A stretch of 35,399 bases of DNA from positions 1-35,399 of the forward strand of contig JAKAXT010000009.1 in the NCBI GenBank assembly GCA_021816425.1, written 5' to 3'. The translations under genes were made by a program, and so were the position numbers. The DNA is from Pseudomonadota bacterium (GTDB lineage: Bacteria > Pseudomonadota > Gammaproteobacteria > Acidiferrobacterales > Acidiferrobacteraceae). The notes beneath the pieces were generated by a model that ran no database searches, was not told the origin of the DNA, and saw only the letters and a program-made list of their open reading frames with translations. This document shows, piece after piece, positions 5,759 through 15,348 of this stretch (positions within the stretch are counted from its first letter, which is position 1; each line of letters begins with the position of its first letter).

Positions 5759-6790
5759 CTAGCGTTCCTCGTAGCTTGGCACGAGACGCCGCTTGCCGGC
5801 GCGCGCCGTGTTCTCGGCCCCGGCACGCAGCGCCGGATGCATCTGCGGCAAGGGGCCCGGCATGCGTCCATGATAGAGGTTAACGACATGCTGCGCCTCG
5901 ACGAAAAAGAGGTAACGCTCAAGCCCGATCCCGACGAAGGCCAGCACCGGCGCAAAGAGTACGGCGAAGCCTATGCCGGCATGGGCTGCTGCGAGCAGGA
6001 TCGCGATCGGCGCCAGGAAGCCGAGCACATAGACCGCGACCTTGAAGCGCAGCGCGCGGCCGGGGCTTATGCAATTGCTGAACTCGTGGGTAAGGAAGGT
6101 CCCGAAGGTATGTCCCTGGTCGAGCAGCCGCACGCGACCGCGCGTGAAGCCCGTGGCCGTCTGCAGGGTGGTCCCGCTCGGGGCGCCGATCCAGAAGTAA
6201 TAGATGGCCTTCATGACAGCGGCCGCGACCAAAAGCGAGCAGGCGATGCTCGCCATGGCGAGGTCGTGGCGATGGGCCAGCAGGCGGCTCGTGGATAGAA
6301 CGGTCATGCCGAGGGCAAGCCCCAGGGCGTAGAAGTTCGCCGGCACGAGCGGCGTGTGCCACTGGCGTATGGTGCGCAGGCAGGCGTAGATCATGCCCTG
6401 ACAGAAGATGGTGACGAGCCCAACCAGCGCTGTCACGTTGCCGAGCAAGAGCGCCACGTTGTCCCTGTCGCTGTTCGTGAAGAACACCCAGCCGAGATAG
6501 GCAATCGCGAGCGGATAGAAAAGCACCGCGAACACACCTTCGCGGGCAAGCCACGAGGTCCGCCAGCGGGTGAAGGCGCGCCATGCGTTCTTCGGGTTCG
6601 CGAGGTGCGCGGTGGACGAGACCATGCCCATGGTGACGAGCAGCAAGGCAAGCGCCACGAGGATCGCGGTGCGTAGCGGGCTCAGGGCGCCGTCGATCGC
6701 GAAGTCGTTGACGACCGCGACCATCGCCATGAGACCAAATCCGGCGCCCGAGAAGAGCGTTAAGAATATGACGGCAAGTGACGGGTTCAT
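5759..6790 (-). CDS. soeC: SoeC-like membrane anchor (DmsC/NrfD-type quinone-reactive subunit)
   Basis: A 343-residue integral membrane protein with about eight hydrophobic segments, beginning with SLAVIFLTLFSGAGFGLMAM near the N terminus. It has the length and layout of DmsC-family anchors. HLANPKNAWRAFTRWRTSWLAREGVF (roughly 62-87) is the conserved loop of this family. In SoeABC-type enzymes this subunit anchors the catalytic pair on the cytoplasmic side and passes electrons to the quinone pool. The ATG at 6790 follows AAGGGG at about 9 nt and lies 23 nt after soeB. It follows SoeA and SoeB, which argues against DMSO or polysulfide reductase, but sequence alone cannot exclude a reductive role. 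Confidence 0.85.
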   Translation of the reverse strand: MNPSLAVIFLTLFSGAGFGLMAMVAVVNDFAIDGALSPLRTAILVALALLLVTMGMVSSTAHLANPKNAWRAFTRWRTSWLAREGVFAVLFYPLAIAYLGWVFFTNSDRDNVALLLGNVTALVGLVTIFCQGMIYACLRTIRQWHTPLVPANFYALGLALGMTVLSTSRLLAHRHDLAMASIACSLLVAAAVMKAIYYFWIGAPSGTTLQTATGFTRGRVRLLDQGHTFGTFLTHEFSNCISPGRALRFKVAVYVLGFLAPIAILLAAAHAGIGFAVLFAPVLAFVGIGLERYLFFVEAQHVVNLYHGRMPGPLPQMHPALRAGAENTARAGKRRLVPSYEER

Positions 6791-6813: not shown

Positions 6814-7509
6814 TTAGCGTTCGACCACGCGGTTGACCCATTCCCTGACCTTACGCGCGAGCGATCCGCGCGGCAGGTCGGAGGTGGGTATCGAAGGCCG
6901 CGTCCGCGGCGGCAGATAATGATTCGTCGGGCTGTAGTTCAGCTCGGGCATGAGCGCGTAGCCGCCGCGCTCGCGCACCGCGCGGCTCGTGACGCTTTCC
7001 GGATCATCCAGGTCGCCGAACAGGCGGGCGTGCGCAGGACAGGCCAGCACGCAGGCGGGCTGGCGGTCCTCCGGAGGCAGCGCCTCGTCGTAGATGCGAT
7101 CCACGCATAGGGTGCATTTCTTCATCGTGCCCGACTCGCGGTCGAGTTCGCGCGCGCCGTAGGGGCAGGCCCAGGAGCAATAGTTGCAGCCCATGCACTT
7201 GTCCTGGTCCACGAGCACGATGCCGTCTTCCGGGCGCTTGTAGGACGCGCCCGTCGGGCACACGGTCACGCACTCGGCGTTCTCGCAGTGCATGCACGAC
7301 ATCGGGAAGTTGATGGTCTTGTTGTTCGGATAATCGCCGATCTCGTAATGGCGGATGCGATTAAACCAGACCCCGGACGGCTCCTTCCCGTACGGATCGT
7401 AGTCGGTGAGCGGCGCTGTGATGGAGCTGGTGTTCCATTGCTTGCACGCGGTTGCGCAGGCGTGGCAGCCCACGCATGTGTCGAGATCGATGACAAGGCC
7501 TAAGCGCAT
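6814..7509 (-). CDS. soeB: SoeB-like iron-sulfur subunit, four [4Fe-4S] clusters
   Basis: This 231-residue ferredoxin-like subunit (DmsB/NrfC type) moves electrons from the molybdenum subunit to the membrane anchor. All sixteen ligands are present in four groups: C12/C15/C18/C22, C72/C75/C80/C84, C105/C108/C111/C115 and C132/C135/C153/C157. There is no twin-arginine or Sec signal, so it should remain in the cytoplasm, as described for SoeABC of purple sulfur bacteria. The start ATG follows AAGGAG at 6 nt and lies 14 nt after soeA, so the two are co-translated in close succession. The last 30 residues are basic and probably contact the membrane subunit. Confidence 0.92.
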   Translation of the reverse strand: MRLGLVIDLDTCVGCHACATACKQWNTSSITAPLTDYDPYGKEPSGVWFNRIRHYEIGDYPNNKTINFPMSCMHCENAECVTVCPTGASYKRPEDGIVLVDQDKCMGCNYCSWACPYGARELDRESGTMKKCTLCVDRIYDEALPPEDRQPACVLACPAHARLFGDLDDPESVTSRAVRERGGYALMPELNYSPTNHYLPPRTRPSIPTSDLPRGSLARKVREWVNRVVER

Positions 7510-7523
7510 GACTTGCTCCTTCT

Positions 7524-10370
7524 TCAGGCTTTGGCGCGCGTGTTATAGCGCAGCACATCGGGTTTGGGGGCGGCGCCCGGCAAGGGCGGCACGTTGGCGA
7601 AGGTGGGCCACACGCCTTCCTCGCCGGGCGCGGCGCGCGTCACCTTCACGCGCAGGTCGTACCAGGCGGCCTGACCTGTGATGGGGTCGGAATTCGTGAG
7701 GCGCCGTTCGCCCGCCTTCTCCGGGAGCAGTTCCGAGATCAGGTGATTCATCAGGAAGCCTTGGGTGGCCTCCGGCGCGTCCGGCTTCAGACCCCAGGTT
7801 CCGGACTGCTTACCGATCGCGTTCCAGGTCCACACGGTGTCTTCCTGGCAGCCCTCGATCAGGCGCAGCTGCACGCGGATCTTGCCGTTATGCGACTCGA
7901 CCCACACCCAGTCCTCGTCATGCAGCCCCAGGCTCTCGCCGCGCGCCCGGTTCATGTACAGATGGTTCTGCGCAATGATCTGCCGCAGCCACGCGTTCTG
8001 CGAGTCCCAGGAGTGGTACATCATCATGGGCCGCTGGTTGACCGCGAAGAACGGATATTCGTTCTTGTCGACGCGCTGCTGCTCCAAAGGCTCGTAGTAG
8101 TCGGGCAGGGGGTCGAAGTAGGTTGCGAGCCGCTCCTGATCGACGCGCTCCTTCGGCATGGGGCCGTCATAGAGGCCGAGCCCGGCCAGGCGGAATTTTT
8201 GTATGGCTTCGGAGTAGAGCTCGATCACGATGGGCTCGGGGCTTTTCAGGAAACCGGCCTCGGTGGCAAATTCCAGGTAGCCCTTGTTGGCGAAGCGCAG
8301 ATAGCGGATACCCTTGGGCAGATGGTACTGGAAGAAGCCCTGGTTCTCGATGTAGCGCTCCCACTGCTCGGGGTTCGGTTCGCCGCGCAGCGACTTGCTG
8401 CCATCGACGCCGCGGTAGCCGGCCAGAAAGCCGATCCCGGGCTCGCGCTCGTAATAGGTGATGAAGTCCTTGTAGCCCTTGTATTTGGGCGTGCCGTCGG
8501 CGTTCGTGAAGACCGGAAGCTTCAGGCGCGCGCCCAGTTCGACCAACACCTCCTGCCAGGGGCGCACGTCGCGGTCGAGCGCAAGCAGCGGGTGCCGTAT
8601 CGAATCGCACACGGCGTCGGGTTCGGAGATCGGGCGGTCGAGCAGCGAAATCGCGTCATGACGCTCGAGGTAGGTCGTGTCGGGCAACACCAGGTCCGCG
8701 AAGTGAACCGTTTCCGAATGAAAGGCGTCGACCACCACGAGGAACGGGATCTTGTATTCCCCGTCCGGGCCCTTCTCGCGCAGCATGTCCTGGATATTCG
8801 CCGTGTTCATGGTCGAGTTCCAGGCCATGTTGGCCATGAAAAAGAGCAGCGTATCGATGGGATACGGGTCGGCCTTCACGGCGTTTGTGATCACCATGTG
8901 CATGAGGCCGTGGTTGGCGATCGGGGCCTCCCAGGAATAGGCCTTGTCGATCCGCAGGGGCTGCCCGTCCTCGTCGATGACGAGATCCTCGGGCGCGGTC
9001 GGGAAGCCGAGCGGGTGCGCGTCGAGCGGCGTATTGGGGGCGCTGCGCTTCGCGGGCTTGCCGGGCGACGGCACCGGACGCGGGTAGGGGGCCTTGGCGC
9101 GGAACCCCCCGGGACAGTCGATGGTACCGAGCAGGATCTGCAGGAAGTGTATCGCGCGCGCCGCCTGGAAGCCGTTGGAATGCGCCGACACGCCGCGCAT
9201 CGCGTGCATCGACACCGGCCGCCCGATGAACTTGTCATGCTTGCGGCCGGCCCAGTCGGTCCACTCGACTGCGACCTCGATGGTCTCTTTGAAGGCCACA
9301 TGGGCCATCTCGAGCGCCAGACGCTCGATCGTGCCGGCCGGGATGCCGCAGATCTTGGCGGCGTTCTCGGGCGCGAAGCGCTCGTCCAGATAGCGCTCGG
9401 CGAGCAGCGTCATGACGGTCTTCACGGTGCGCCCGTCGGGTGTCTTGTGTTCACCGAAGAGCGCCGGATGGGAGGCGGAATCGAGGCCGTTTACGAAGGC
9501 CTCCTGTTTCAGGTCCCATGCAAGCGGGTGGCCGGCCTCGTCCCGATAGATGAGGCCATCACCCTTTTGCCCCGGCGTCTGCACCACGAGGAAGGGCGCG
9601 TTCGTGTAGCGGATCAGAAATTCCCAGTCGAAGAGTTCCCGCGAAAGCAGCACGTGGACCATGGACAGGGCAAGGATGGCGTCGGTGCCCGGACGGATGG
9701 GGACCCATTCGTCGGCGACCGCCTGGTAGCCCGTGCGCGCCGGATTGATCCCGACGAACTTGCCCCCGCGGCTTTTCAGTTTCTCGATGCCGATTTTCAT
9801 GGGGTTGGAGTTGTGGTCTTCCGCTACTCCCCAGAGCATGAAGTATTTGGTGCGATCCCAGTCCGGGTCGCCGAACTCCCAGAAAGCGAATCCCAGGCTG
9901 TAGAGCCCGGCCGCCGCCATGTTGACCGAGCAGAAGCCGCCGTGGGCCGACCAGTTGAGCGTCCCGAACTGTTCGGCGAACAGGCGCGAGAGCGCCTGCA
10001 TCTGGTCGCGTCCGGTGAAAAATGCGAATTTGTTGGGGTCGGTCGCGCGGATGCGGGCCAGGCGTTCGGTGAGCATGTCGAGGGCCTGTTCCCAGGAGAT
10101 CTCGACGAATTCCCCGGCGCCGCGTTCCGTGCCGGGCTTGCGCATGAGCGGGCTGCGCAGGCGCGCCGGCGAGCACTGCTTCATGATGCCGGCCGACCCC
10201 TTGGCGCAGAGCACGCCTTTATTGATGGGGTGATTGCGATTACCCTGAATGAAGCGGACCTGATTGTTCTCTATGGTCACCTTGATGCCGCAGCGGCACG
10301 CGCACATATAACAGGTGGAGTACTTGATCTCCTGTTTGCTATGGTCGTCGCCATGCTGGACTGCGGACAT
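7524..10370 (-). CDS. soeA: SoeA-like molybdopterin oxidoreductase, sulfite dehydrogenase catalytic subunit
   Basis: A DMSO-reductase superfamily enzyme of 948 residues that binds bis-MGD molybdenum and one [4Fe-4S] cluster. The cluster ligands, counted from ATG 10370, are C20, C23, C27 and C55 (CYMCACRC ... GVLCAKGS). FTGRDQMQALSR, HGGFCSVNMAAAGLY and GVAEDHNSNP follow in the molybdopterin domains, and the C-terminal dinucleotide-binding domain includes YHSWDSQNAWLRQI. No Tat signal precedes the first cysteines, which places the enzyme in the cytoplasm. That feature, with the SoeB and SoeC partners, fits the sulfite:quinone oxidoreductase SoeABC, which oxidises sulfite to sulfate. A TTG 33 nt upstream is in frame, but the ATG at 10370 has GGAG 7 nt before it. 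A polysulfide or thiosulfate reductase is less likely, because those are exported by Tat. Confidence 0.88.
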   Translation of the reverse strand: MSAVQHGDDHSKQEIKYSTCYMCACRCGIKVTIENNQVRFIQGNRNHPINKGVLCAKGSAGIMKQCSPARLRSPLMRKPGTERGAGEFVEISWEQALDMLTERLARIRATDPNKFAFFTGRDQMQALSRLFAEQFGTLNWSAHGGFCSVNMAAAGLYSLGFAFWEFGDPDWDRTKYFMLWGVAEDHNSNPMKIGIEKLKSRGGKFVGINPARTGYQAVADEWVPIRPGTDAILALSMVHVLLSRELFDWEFLIRYTNAPFLVVQTPGQKGDGLIYRDEAGHPLAWDLKQEAFVNGLDSASHPALFGEHKTPDGRTVKTVMTLLAERYLDERFAPENAAKICGIPAGTIERLALEMAHVAFKETIEVAVEWTDWAGRKHDKFIGRPVSMHAMRGVSAHSNGFQAARAIHFLQILLGTIDCPGGFRAKAPYPRPVPSPGKPAKRSAPNTPLDAHPLGFPTAPEDLVIDEDGQPLRIDKAYSWEAPIANHGLMHMVITNAVKADPYPIDTLLFFMANMAWNSTMNTANIQDMLREKGPDGEYKIPFLVVVDAFHSETVHFADLVLPDTTYLERHDAISLLDRPISEPDAVCDSIRHPLLALDRDVRPWQEVLVELGARLKLPVFTNADGTPKYKGYKDFITYYEREPGIGFLAGYRGVDGSKSLRGEPNPEQWERYIENQGFFQYHLPKGIRYLRFANKGYLEFATEAGFLKSPEPIVIELYSEAIQKFRLAGLGLYDGPMPKERVDQERLATYFDPLPDYYEPLEQQRVDKNEYPFFAVNQRPMMMYHSWDSQNAWLRQIIAQNHLYMNRARGESLGLHDEDWVWVESHNGKIRVQLRLIEGCQEDTVWTWNAIGKQSGTWGLKPDAPEATQGFLMNHLISELLPEKAGERRLTNSDPITGQAAWYDLRVKVTRAAPGEEGVWPTFANVPPLPGAAPKPDVLRYNTRAKA

Positions 10371-10447
10371 ATGGTCTCCAAAAACGTAAAGGTCCCGATG
10401 CAAGGACCTTACACGAAAACCGAAGCGCGATGCTAGGGAATTGTTTT

Positions 10448-10476
10448 AATAACCTGATAAAAATCAGATAGTTATT
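10448..10476. promoter_or_regulatory. Interrupted palindrome between soeA and the FAH gene
   Basis: AATAAC-CTGAT, a four-A loop, ATCAG, then ATA and GTTATT form an 11-bp dyad with one 3-nt bulge. It sits in a distinctly AT-rich stretch (10434-10520) of the 191-nt divergent intergenic region, 78 nt upstream of the soeA start and 86 nt upstream of the hydrolase start. It could be an operator serving both promoters, or a small hairpin. No known consensus was matched with confidence. Confidence 0.5.
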
Positions 10477-10561
10477 TCATGGCATTATGGAGGGTATCAC
10501 GGTGATTTATAGGAGAGCGGCGAAGCGTCCAAAAGGGGCATCTCAAAAACAGGGGTGAAGC

Positions 10562-11476
10562 ATGGAGTTTCTGCGTTATAAGGTCGCACAGGACCGCTAT
10601 CGCCTCGGCGTGAGAACGCCCGAGGGTCTATATGATCTGGCTGGCTGCTATAGCCGCTACCGGGAGCAGGGCGGGGGCGCGATCCCGGGGATCGCCAGGG
10701 CATTCGCGCAGGGGAGTCTGCGCGCGCTGCTCGAAAGGCCCGGTGTAAGCGCCTTCCTCGAGGCCGTACGCCTGAGTGACGCGCATTGCCGGCCTGCGGT
10801 GCTGAACGAGGACGCGGTGACGTTCGGCCCGCCGCTCCACGACCCCGGTCGCTTCATCGGGATCGGTCTCAACTACCGCTGCCACGCGCGCGAGATGGGG
10901 CACCCGATACCCTCGGAGCCGCCGCTCTTCGCGAAATGGGCCAACGCCATCTCGGGGCCGGGCGATGACGTCATCTTGCCGGCAAATTCGCAGGCGGTCG
11001 ACTATGAGATCGAACTCGGCGTCGTCATGGGTCGGCGCGCGCGCGGCGTTTCGGTCAACGATGCCCTCGACCATGTCTTCGGCTACACCGTGATCAATGA
11101 TGTGAGCGCCCGCGACCTGCAGTTTCGTACCAGCCAATGGCTCGCCGGCAAGATCGCTGATGGCTTCGCGCCCATGGGGCCTGCGGTCGTGGAGAGGGAT
11201 GACATCGGTCCCTCGCAAGGCCTCACGCTCGAGACCTGGGTCAACGGGGAGTTGCGCCAGCACGGCCATACGTCGGACATGATTTATGACGTCCCGGCCC
11301 TCGTGAGCTATTTGTCGCATCTCATCACGCTGGAGCCGGGAGATGTCATTGCCACCGGCACGCCCGCCGGGGTCGGCATGAGTCGCAAACCGCCCCGCTA
11401 TCTCAATTCGGGGGATGTCGTCCGCATGCGCATTGCGGGGGTGGGAACGATAGAGAACCGCTTTCGCGCGCCTTGA
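10562..11476 (+). CDS. Fumarylacetoacetate hydrolase (FAH) family protein
   Basis: A 304-residue protein with the FAH fold. The first 80 residues are a variable N-terminal domain and the rest the catalytic core. Metal ligands are visible as E149, E151 and D180 (DYEIELGVV and GYTVINDVSARDLQ), with GLNYRCHAREMG at 102-113 and LEPGDVIATGTPAGVG near the C terminus. Members cleave or decarboxylate 2-oxo acids: fumarylpyruvate hydrolase, oxaloacetate decarboxylase and acylpyruvase belong here. The exact substrate cannot be read from sequence. The ATG follows AGGGGTG at a good distance. It is transcribed divergently from soeA and shares the palindromic intergenic region, but no metabolic link to sulfite oxidation is evident. 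A hairpin terminator follows. Confidence 0.9.
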   Translation: MEFLRYKVAQDRYRLGVRTPEGLYDLAGCYSRYREQGGGAIPGIARAFAQGSLRALLERPGVSAFLEAVRLSDAHCRPAVLNEDAVTFGPPLHDPGRFIGIGLNYRCHAREMGHPIPSEPPLFAKWANAISGPGDDVILPANSQAVDYEIELGVVMGRRARGVSVNDALDHVFGYTVINDVSARDLQFRTSQWLAGKIADGFAPMGPAVVERDDIGPSQGLTLETWVNGELRQHGHTSDMIYDVPALVSYLSHLITLEPGDVIATGTPAGVGMSRKPPRYLNSGDVVRMRIAGVGTIENRFRAP

Positions 11477-12292: not shown

Positions 12293-12328
12293 GTGGCACG
12301 TTCTCCAAAGGTGGGTGCCGCCAAGCAT

Positions 12329-12373
12329 ACCCGTGTTATATACGGGTACCAGATGGGCTGGTTATACTGGTAC
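12329..12373. promoter_or_regulatory. Two overlapping inverted repeats in the methyltransferase/MmyB divergent promoter
   Basis: ACCCGT (12329-12334) pairs with ACGGGT (12342-12347) across 7 nt. GTACCAG (12346-12352) pairs with CTGGTAC (12367-12373) across 14 nt. GTTATA occurs twice, 26 nt apart (12335 and 12361), and TATACT at 12363-12368 could be the -10 box of the regulator gene. This fits an autoregulatory operator between divergent genes. Confidence 0.5.
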
Positions 12374-12381
12374 AAGCACCC

Positions 12382-13628: not shown

Positions 13629-14023
13629 CGATTGGGTTTACCTTAAAAAATGACCGTCCATTCGTCAAAGACAACGCAATTCCTTTATGGTTCCACGGAT
13701 GCCTACCTTAAAGGATCGCTGTCCATCTTGGTACCGAGAAAAGGCCCAGTCTTGGCCCTTTGCGTGCGCACTATACCGCATTTTAGCGACAATAGCAGCA
13801 CCTCTTTTTCTCCAGCGCGATTATTGGCTGTCATGCGTTATTGGGCATGGAATCATAGACGTGTGAAACTGCCGGCATACGCACAGGGAAAGTGCGCCAA
13901 TAGCTGGCGCCGGTCGTGGCGGTTTGCTGGGCCCCGGGACCCGATCCGGGTGCCCGGAGGCGGGTTCGATATGGGATAATGAGCGGACTCGGGGTCGATG
14001 AACGGCGTCAATGGGAGGACGGA
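13629..14023. other. AT-richer intergenic region before cysQ
   Basis: No gene was recognised in these 395 nt between the ArsR-type gene and the preferred start of cysQ. TACCTTAAA occurs twice (13639-13647, overlapping the putative ArsR-type promoter, and 13704-13712), a candidate repeated operator. A GC-rich stem-loop at 13934-13957 (CCGGG/CCCGG and CCCG/CGGG with small bulges) lies in the presumed cysQ leader. The middle part (13640-13870) is notably richer in A and T than neighbouring genes. Confidence 0.5.
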
Positions 14024-14895: not shown

Positions 14896-15348
14896 TCAGG
14901 GGAAGCGATAGCCGATGCCCAGGAACTCCCAGCCGAGATTCGGGCCGGATCGGTCGAAGCCGCAGATCTGCTTACAGTTGCTGAAGTGCGTCCATAGGGC
15001 CTCGAGGCGCGGCGTGAAGCGGTAGGCCAGGCGCAGCTCGAAGTTCCAGTGCGTGCCGTTCACGAAGGTTGTGTGCGTGAGATACGCGCCGCCCAGACCC
15101 AGGACGACCGATCCTATCCGGTAGTTGTAATCAAGGCCTGCCACCGCGCTTTTTTGAAACCCCCCGACGAAGACGCCGACCGGCCCCTGTCGTCGCCTTA
15201 CGAAGACCGCCTTCTGGGAGGCGGCGTATTTGACGGCCGTGGCCCCCACGAGCGTCCAGTGGGCGGGGATCCAGAAGGATGTCAAAAGCGGGGGCAGGAA
15301 CGAAACAAGCGGGGCGCGGCCCGGATGGCGGACGAGGCCTTTCAGCAC
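14896..15348 (-). CDS. Small outer-membrane beta-barrel protein, PagL/acyloxyacyl hydrolase-like
   Basis: A 150-residue protein whose second half alternates hydrophobic and polar residues as in a beta-barrel and ends in GIGYRFP, an aromatic-rich outer-membrane C terminus. H121-x-S123-N124, then PNLGWEFLGIGYRF, recall the His-Ser active site of PagL lipid A 3-O-deacylases; E141 could be the third residue, though spacing differs. A disulfide is possible between C125 and C129. The N terminus is doubtful: the GTG at 15348 has no good ribosome binding site, and residues 12-43 are hydrophobic but not a textbook signal peptide. The barrel portion is shorter than characterised PagL (about 150). Assignment is tentative; a truncated or frameshifted N terminus is possible. 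Confidence 0.55.
   Translation of the reverse strand: MLKGLVRHPGRAPLVSFLPPLLTSFWIPAHWTLVGATAVKYAASQKAVFVRRRQGPVGVFVGGFQKSAVAGLDYNYRIGSVVLGLGGAYLTHTTFVNGTHWNFELRLAYRFTPRLEALWTHFSNCKQICGFDRSGPNLGWEFLGIGYRFP

Follow-up and report, generated by a model that had tools for sequence, protein, structure and literature searches.

A conserved two-way control region between soeA and an FAH-family gene in Acidiferrobacteraceae, with a lineage-specific dyad of putative CRP/FNR type

Background

SoeABC is a cytoplasmic sulfite-oxidizing enzyme whose regulation was not found described in the accessible portions of the literature. What governs the expression of its genes where they lie back to back with a gene of another family? 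The question is raised by a stretch of 35,399 nucleotides (the window, i.e., the whole of the DNA analysed here) belonging to a 2.3-Mb draft genome of the Acidiferrobacteraceae (G000, 160 contigs). Here soeA (7524-10370, minus strand, ATG at 10370), the first gene of soeABC-moaCADE, and a gene of the FAH family (PF01557; 10562-11476, plus strand, ATG at 10562) are divergent, with 191 bp between their starts (10371-10561). An initial annotation of the window had singled out this gap as AT-rich and had proposed a bulged palindrome within it as a possible switch of soeABC-moaCADE. The base composition bears out the first of these points, as the gap has 44.5% G+C and its conserved core (10433-10513) 33.3%, against 66.2% for the whole window.

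Gene content of the locus

The soeA gene encodes a molybdopterin oxidoreductase and is accompanied on the minus strand by soeB (6814-7509, a 4Fe-4S protein) and soeC (5759-6790, a DmsC-type membrane anchor). The locus thus has the three-subunit operon of molybdoprotein, Fe-S protein and membrane anchor, related to annotated soeA, by which SoeABC is recognised. In the comparison with NCBIfam, soeA fell short of the cut-off of every model, as did soeB for the 25 models shown and the FAH protein for all models. By sequence, the nearest solved structure to soeA is a thiosulfate reductase entry (2vpw), and soeA shares 54-56% identity with its counterparts in two further genomes of the order (G028 and G023). 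Sulfurifustis variabilis skN76 and Sulfuricaulis limicola HA5, both placed in the Acidiferrobacterales, are annotated with soeABC in the available part of PMC5024460. We regard soeABC-moaCADE as a putative sulfite-oxidizing gene set.

Elsewhere in the window, a tRNA gene (1440-1513) adjoins ORFs (513-1180) that by eye resemble a broken tyrosine recombinase, possibly left behind by an element that had integrated there. Near the soe genes, an ORF at 14896-15348 has an outer-membrane-like ending (HWNF...HFSN...GPN.GW.F) and presumably resembles the PagL-type lipid A deacylases; an ORF with such an ending also adjoins soeA in another family of the order (L082, L084, and L085).

A conserved core between the two genes

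A DNA search of 41 genomes recovered the region in 12, counting that of the window, and protein searches of 57 genomes of the order (cut-offs of 1e-40 for FAH and 1e-200 for soeA) added five further genomes, for a total of 17. The divergent pair and the core between its members are kept in every one of these, i.e., in 14/14 genomes of genus g1 and 3/3 of genus g2, at soeA-FAH distances of 179-197 bp (in G001 and G017, soeA is split between contigs or runs off the contig). The 18th genome of the family (G015, genus g3) yielded neither gene at the same two cut-offs.

The core spans 10433-10513 in the window and measures 81 bp in all genomes of g1 and one base more (82 bp) in the three of g2. Invariant columns of the 17-way alignment number 31 of 81 within it and 4 of 110 in the remainder of the gap (Fisher p 8.5e-10, a value that is only a guide, the rows being related), and eight chosen, more divergent rows gave 32/81 and 5/110, respectively. 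Compared pairwise, the rows have a mean identity of 0.716 over the core, but of 0.468 and 0.366 over the two leaders, the lengths of which vary (57-63 and 37-55 bp) while that of the core is fixed within each genus. The conservation of this stretch is far beyond chance, and the initial view of the gap as a divergent control region holds: 10433-10513 is a real, well-conserved two-way regulatory region of a known, ordinary kind. It is apparently undescribed at the soeA/FAH locus, as the available parts of the literature on SoeABC, Acidiferrobacter and regulation contain no description of it.

Conservation is strong in block 1, GAATTGTTTTRATARC (10438-10453), which adjoins the predicted soeA -35 and is present at the locus with at most one mismatch in 17/17 genomes, its stretch GAATTGTTTTRATA (10438-10451) being nearly invariant. 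To its right lie further conserved words, i.e., ATAA (10457-10460, invariant in 17/17 genomes), ATT (10474-10476), T-ATG (10485-10489), TAT (10495-10497), and T-AT (10507-10510).

Such a stretch might instead work as RNA (a leader, a Moco-family riboswitch, or an attenuator) or encode a small peptide, a reading that we consider very improbable. A terminator-like hairpin does stand just before soeA (minus strand, 10410-10389; one site versus 0.2 expected), but by eye its stem is not kept beyond the nearest relatives of the window. Only 1/60 column shuffles matched the consensus fold of the entire gap on the minus strand, yet this fold amounts to only -0.26 kcal/mol, the six consensus tests ranging from 0 to this value; single-sequence folds gave z-scores of -1.16 and -0.85, and the region had no Rfam match even at E up to 10. 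As for a peptide, block 1 lies within an open frame of 24-44 codons in G007, G009, and the g2 genomes, but this frame is cut short in the other genomes, and the two longest ORFs listed per strand and genome (at least 12 codons) have no start codon in common. A Moco riboswitch had also been considered for moaCADE and was rejected, no Rfam covariance model matching.

Predicted promoters

The predicted soeA promoter (10408-10436, minus strand) consists of a -35 CTAGCA (10436-10431) and a -10 TGTAAG (10413-10408) separated by 17 bp. It has the top mean score on its strand over the 17 genomes, at a narrow lead (3.27, the next being 3.22), and in five of the seven genomes that lack the dyad its -10 reads TACACT, TAGACT, or TAAACT. 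For the FAH gene there are two candidates on the plus strand. P1 (10485-10513; TTATGG at 10485-10490, 17 bp, TATAGG at 10508-10513) was chosen by eye prior to scoring and came fifth (2.57), and its -10 is not kept in the three g2 genomes; P2 (10446-10475; TTAATA at 10446-10451, 18 bp, AGTTAT at 10470-10475) came first (4.31). All these scores were computed with E. coli frequencies, and every mean stays below 5.1, the single-position 99th percentile of the shuffles. Taken together, the predicted soeA promoter and P1 have their midpoint at exactly 10460.5, which is also the centre of the dyad. Given that conservation about this point is not mirror-symmetric (r = 0.009), we place little weight on the exact midpoint, which may be a coincidence.

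A comparable layout is seen in other families of the order, where seven of 13 soeA upstream stretches carry, by eye, TTAT (TAAT once) 20 bp (21 once) before a TTGGCG/A/C -35 that is followed by a TATAGT-like -10; five of the other six have different sequences, and one is cut short. In the window, TTAT also stands 20 bp before the predicted soeA -35, an agreement in position that lends the prediction some support.

The palindrome and its inner site

The palindrome is situated at 10448-10476, in position and sequence as initially annotated, and comprises 11 pairs with a bulge. Its left arm is formed by AATAAC (10448-10453) and CTGAT (10454-10458), its loop by AAAA (10459-10462), and its right arm by ATCAG (10463-10467), a 3-nt bulge ATA (10468-10470), and GTTATT (10471-10476). 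The gapped inverted-repeat score of this dyad, 8, was attained in 72/300 dinucleotide shuffles of the 191-bp gap and in 57/200 of the 81-bp core, and the gap has another inverted repeat (10386-10412) with the same score. A bulged palindrome of such a score is not beyond chance, and alone it is weak evidence.

The inner site of the palindrome, CTGATAAAAATCAG (10454-10467), is a putative binding site that reads CTGAT-N4-ATCAG and has the half-site spacing of the CRP/FNR type. The shorter form TGAT-N4-ATCA arose in 14/5000 shuffles of the gap and the full form in 1/5000, both patterns having been chosen after seeing the sequence. The full pattern occurs at a single place in the 2.3-Mb assembly, namely 10454-10467, and at one or two other places in each of G005, G010, and G014. 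The relaxed pattern YTGATN4ATCAR was found at 8, 15, 20, and 11 places versus 0, 1, 1, and 0 for its reversed form, which is a poor control with its ACTA/TAGT words, and this excess was left out of the evidence.

All five pairs of the inner site are present in ten of the 17 genomes (G000, G011, G003, G006, G012, G005, G002, G008, G004, and G013), and across these ten all ten arm positions are unchanged. In the other seven, the site is broken (0 to 3 of 5 pairs) though the soeA/FAH pair is kept. The outer arms RATAAC/GTTATT retain 5 or 6 of 6 pairs in the ten dyad-bearing genomes, 6/6 in G009, 5/6 in G016, and 2-4 in the rest. Footprinting in relatives, as the initial annotation had suggested, accordingly gave a divided answer: the core is kept in 17/17, and the dyad is broken in seven relatives that keep the gene pair, which by the criterion set in that annotation counts in part against the dyad as the switch. 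The proposal of a switch for soeABC-moaCADE stands as far as a conserved region with a likely regulatory role is concerned, but not for the palindrome as its essential part, complete as it is in only 10/17. On a tree of the FAH protein, one change places the ten dyad-bearing genomes on one side of one branch (support 71/82, recovered in 70% of 200 bootstrap trees; 8 of the 14 inner branches of this tree are open). The control region is old, and the CTGAT dyad is a lineage-specific part of it.

The lineage-specific element might alternatively be an IHF site, AATCAG-ATAG-TTA (10462-10474), bending the DNA between the two promoters. It has one mismatch to the consensus WATCAANNNNTTR in the window, and the dyad-less G009 has AATCAA-TGAG-TTA with no mismatch (alignment read by eye); however, such sites are loosely defined, and we deem this reading improbable.

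The seven genomes without the dyad show another repeat over nearly the same bases. At the place of GGAATAA-N11-TTATTCC (10454-10478 in the window) they retain 5-7 of 7 pairs (7/7 in G007 and G010, 6/7 in G001 and G014, and 5/7 in G009, G017, and G016), as against 4/7 in the ten with the dyad, and g2, outside genus g1, has the GGAATAA half-site. When the G007 and G010 gaps were each shuffled 1000 times, 7-bp arms separated by 3-20 bp arose in 139 and 160 cases, respectively, and arms separated by exactly 11 bp in 10 and 11, so that taken alone this repeat is weak versus chance. An operator replacement in place is conceivable, by which one lineage would have swapped GGAATAA-N11-TTATTCC for a CRP/FNR-type site, moving the control of soeA and the FAH gene to an oxygen or redox regulator while promoter spacing stayed fixed; we consider such a course of events unlikely.

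Candidate regulators

Proteins that could read a CRP/FNR-type site are present throughout the family, HTH_Crp_2 matches being found in 18/18 genomes. The window genome encodes an FNR-like protein with an N-terminal Cys motif (CSNCSLREIC) and a recognition helix of the E--SR form (ETVSR), both identified by eye. FNR-like loci were examined in 12 of the 18 genomes (six dyad-bearing, six without the site), and by eye the Cys motif and the ETVSR helix are present in 12/12. In ten of the 12 loci, a box of the form TTGAT-N4-[AG]TCAA stands 83-106 bp ahead of the aligned start of the FNR-like gene; that of G017 has no such box, and that of G007 is cut by a contig end. The occurrence of FNR-like genes in the six examined genomes without the inner site is as expected for a global regulator.

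How closely does the soeA site resemble the operators of known FNR/ANR systems? The TGAT/ATCA half-sites and their 4-bp spacing are found at 10454-10467, complete in 10/17 genomes, and are shared with the consensus TTGAT-N4-ATCAA given in the accessible text of PMC3688515; FNR-like proteins occur in the soeA/FAH clade, too. The site also lies upstream of an operon for a DMSO-reductase-family molybdoenzyme, as do the FNR sites of E. coli dmsABC and narGHJI, which the same text puts at -41.5. In contrast, its outer bases are C and G in 10/10 genomes instead of the T and A of the consensus, which the boxes before the FNR-like genes have in 10/10, and its predicted position is about -59.5 instead of the usual -41.5. 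In the part of PMC3688515 at hand, sites of FNR-activated promoters are mostly near -41.5, with 1/23 at -60.5, and E. coli FNR sites may match the consensus only partly. Because the outer bases differ in all ten genomes and the position is about -60 rather than -41.5, we set the FNR-type reading of the inner site below even odds.

A real possibility, though one we doubt, is that the two-way promoter is ruled by another factor acting through block 1 and half-sites of the form ATAA-N11-TTATT, in which case CTGAT-N4-ATCAG would be a product of drift and bind nothing itself. Drift agrees with the full or near invariance of block 1 and ATAA across the 17 genomes, which the palindrome does not share, with the many bulged palindromes of this score in shuffles, and with the presence of FNR-like genes both with and without the inner site. 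It sits less well with ten arm positions unchanged in ten genomes and with the rarity of the inner pattern in shuffles, even if that pattern was picked afterwards.

The initial annotation had named LysR as a candidate regulator, and this suggestion found no backing in the gene neighbourhood: the genome has eight LysR-type HTH matches, none of them on the window's contig, although the cognate gene of a LysR-type operator is expected nearby and is commonly divergent from the target. A LysR protein encoded at a distance is conceivable as regulator. The regulators encoded near the locus are XRE/MmyB-like and ArsR-like, and by eye their upstream regions have other conserved blocks and nothing in common with the soeA/FAH core. 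Sites of RsrR and TspR in the thiosulfate pathways of the acidophile Acidithiobacillus caldus are likewise inverted repeats upstream of sulfur-oxidation genes; however, their sequences (AACACCTGTTACACCTGTT; TGTCCCAAATGGGACA) are by eye unrelated to the soeA/FAH core, they act on tetH and sox, and no regulator of soeABC is named in the available part of that paper (PMC6335251). After by-eye comparison with the respective consensus sequences, readings as MerR, sigma-54, ModE, NarL, UP-element, and LysR T-N11-A sites were dropped.

A model of two-way control

Divergent sigma-70 promoter pairs can share a central operator. The soeA/FAH region has their back-to-back genes, fixed spacing and conserved inter-promoter DNA, and it differs from them in that neither local regulator gene carries the motif upstream and in that the starts are predicted ones. 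We tentatively favour, at somewhat short of an even chance, a compact two-way promoter-operator at 10433-10513 that holds a CRP/FNR-type site in ten genomes; its promoters, starts, binding and sign of regulation are inferred. A leftward sigma-70-type promoter (-35 at 10436-10431, -10 at 10413-10408) would drive soeABC-moaCADE, and a rightward one, P1 (10485-10513) or P2 (10446-10475), the FAH gene. The DNA from the soeA -35 to about -75, i.e., block 1 and the central repeats, would be bound by at least one transcription factor, and such binding would set the expression of soeA and probably that of the FAH gene as well. In the ten dyad-bearing genomes, a dimer of the CRP/FNR family at 10454-10467 would act from about -59.5, by arithmetic on predicted starts, and would couple sulfite oxidation to the oxygen or redox state. 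In the seven dyad-less genomes, the same DNA would be read by another factor through the remnants of GGAATAA-N11-TTATTCC. The kept pairing of the two genes makes it plausible that the FAH gene is co-regulated with soeA.

A table in the accessible portion of PMC8790237 gives anaerobic reduction of ferric iron, with sulfur as the electron donor, for the probable relative Acidiferrobacter thiooxydans, and oxygen-dependent control of the sulfite step would therefore make sense. For footprinting and reporter work, the aligned core defines a target of exactly 81 bp, and genomes with and without the dyad lend themselves to comparison.

Related elements and neighbouring gaps

The motif appears to be confined to this locus within the family at the stringencies used. 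TTGTTTTRATAACCTGATAARAATCA (up to 3 mismatches) was found once in each of 11/14 g1 genomes, always at soeA/FAH, and GAATTGTTTTRATARC (up to 2 mismatches) gave 17 matches at the locus (0-1 mismatch) and 17 elsewhere in the 18 family genomes; the latter all had 2 mismatches and are near the level of the reversed control, 11 matches. Outside the family, block 1 is not clearly present, its best matches having 3-6 mismatches in 13 loci (113-460 bp around the soeA start, both strands).

Other families have a soeA upstream element of their own, approximately CTTATNNRCCCNTTAATAANNCTGA, directly before the TTGGCG...TATAGT-like promoter (seen in L082, L084, L085, L087, L089, L093, and L094). The pattern of this element had one match each in 7/57 genomes, all beside soeA, six of the seven having been used to write it.

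Two neighbouring divergent gaps of the window contain conserved DNA as well. That between the ArsR and cysQ genes (13629-13984) has conserved blocks in the alignment near TATACCGCATTTTAGCGACAATAGCAGCACC and GCATGGAATCATAGACG, which stand out best in g1. Across seven loci of both genera, the ArsR-like protein shows 88-94% identity to that of the window, and this identity exceeds those of the methyltransferase and XRE proteins in each locus that has them (no XRE match was found in the examined stretches of G010 and G014, and no methyltransferase match in that of G010). In the gap between the methyltransferase and XRE (MmyB-like) genes (12293-12381), GGTAC words recur within a conserved stretch (in the window, GGTACCAGATGGGCTGGTTATACTGGTAC) that is seen in five aligned loci, of which G016 is the least alike, and that may be the operator of the XRE regulator itself. 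In G005 (L095, 7640-9308), an ORF pair that by eye is IS200/IS605 transposase-like splits the XRE and methyltransferase genes.
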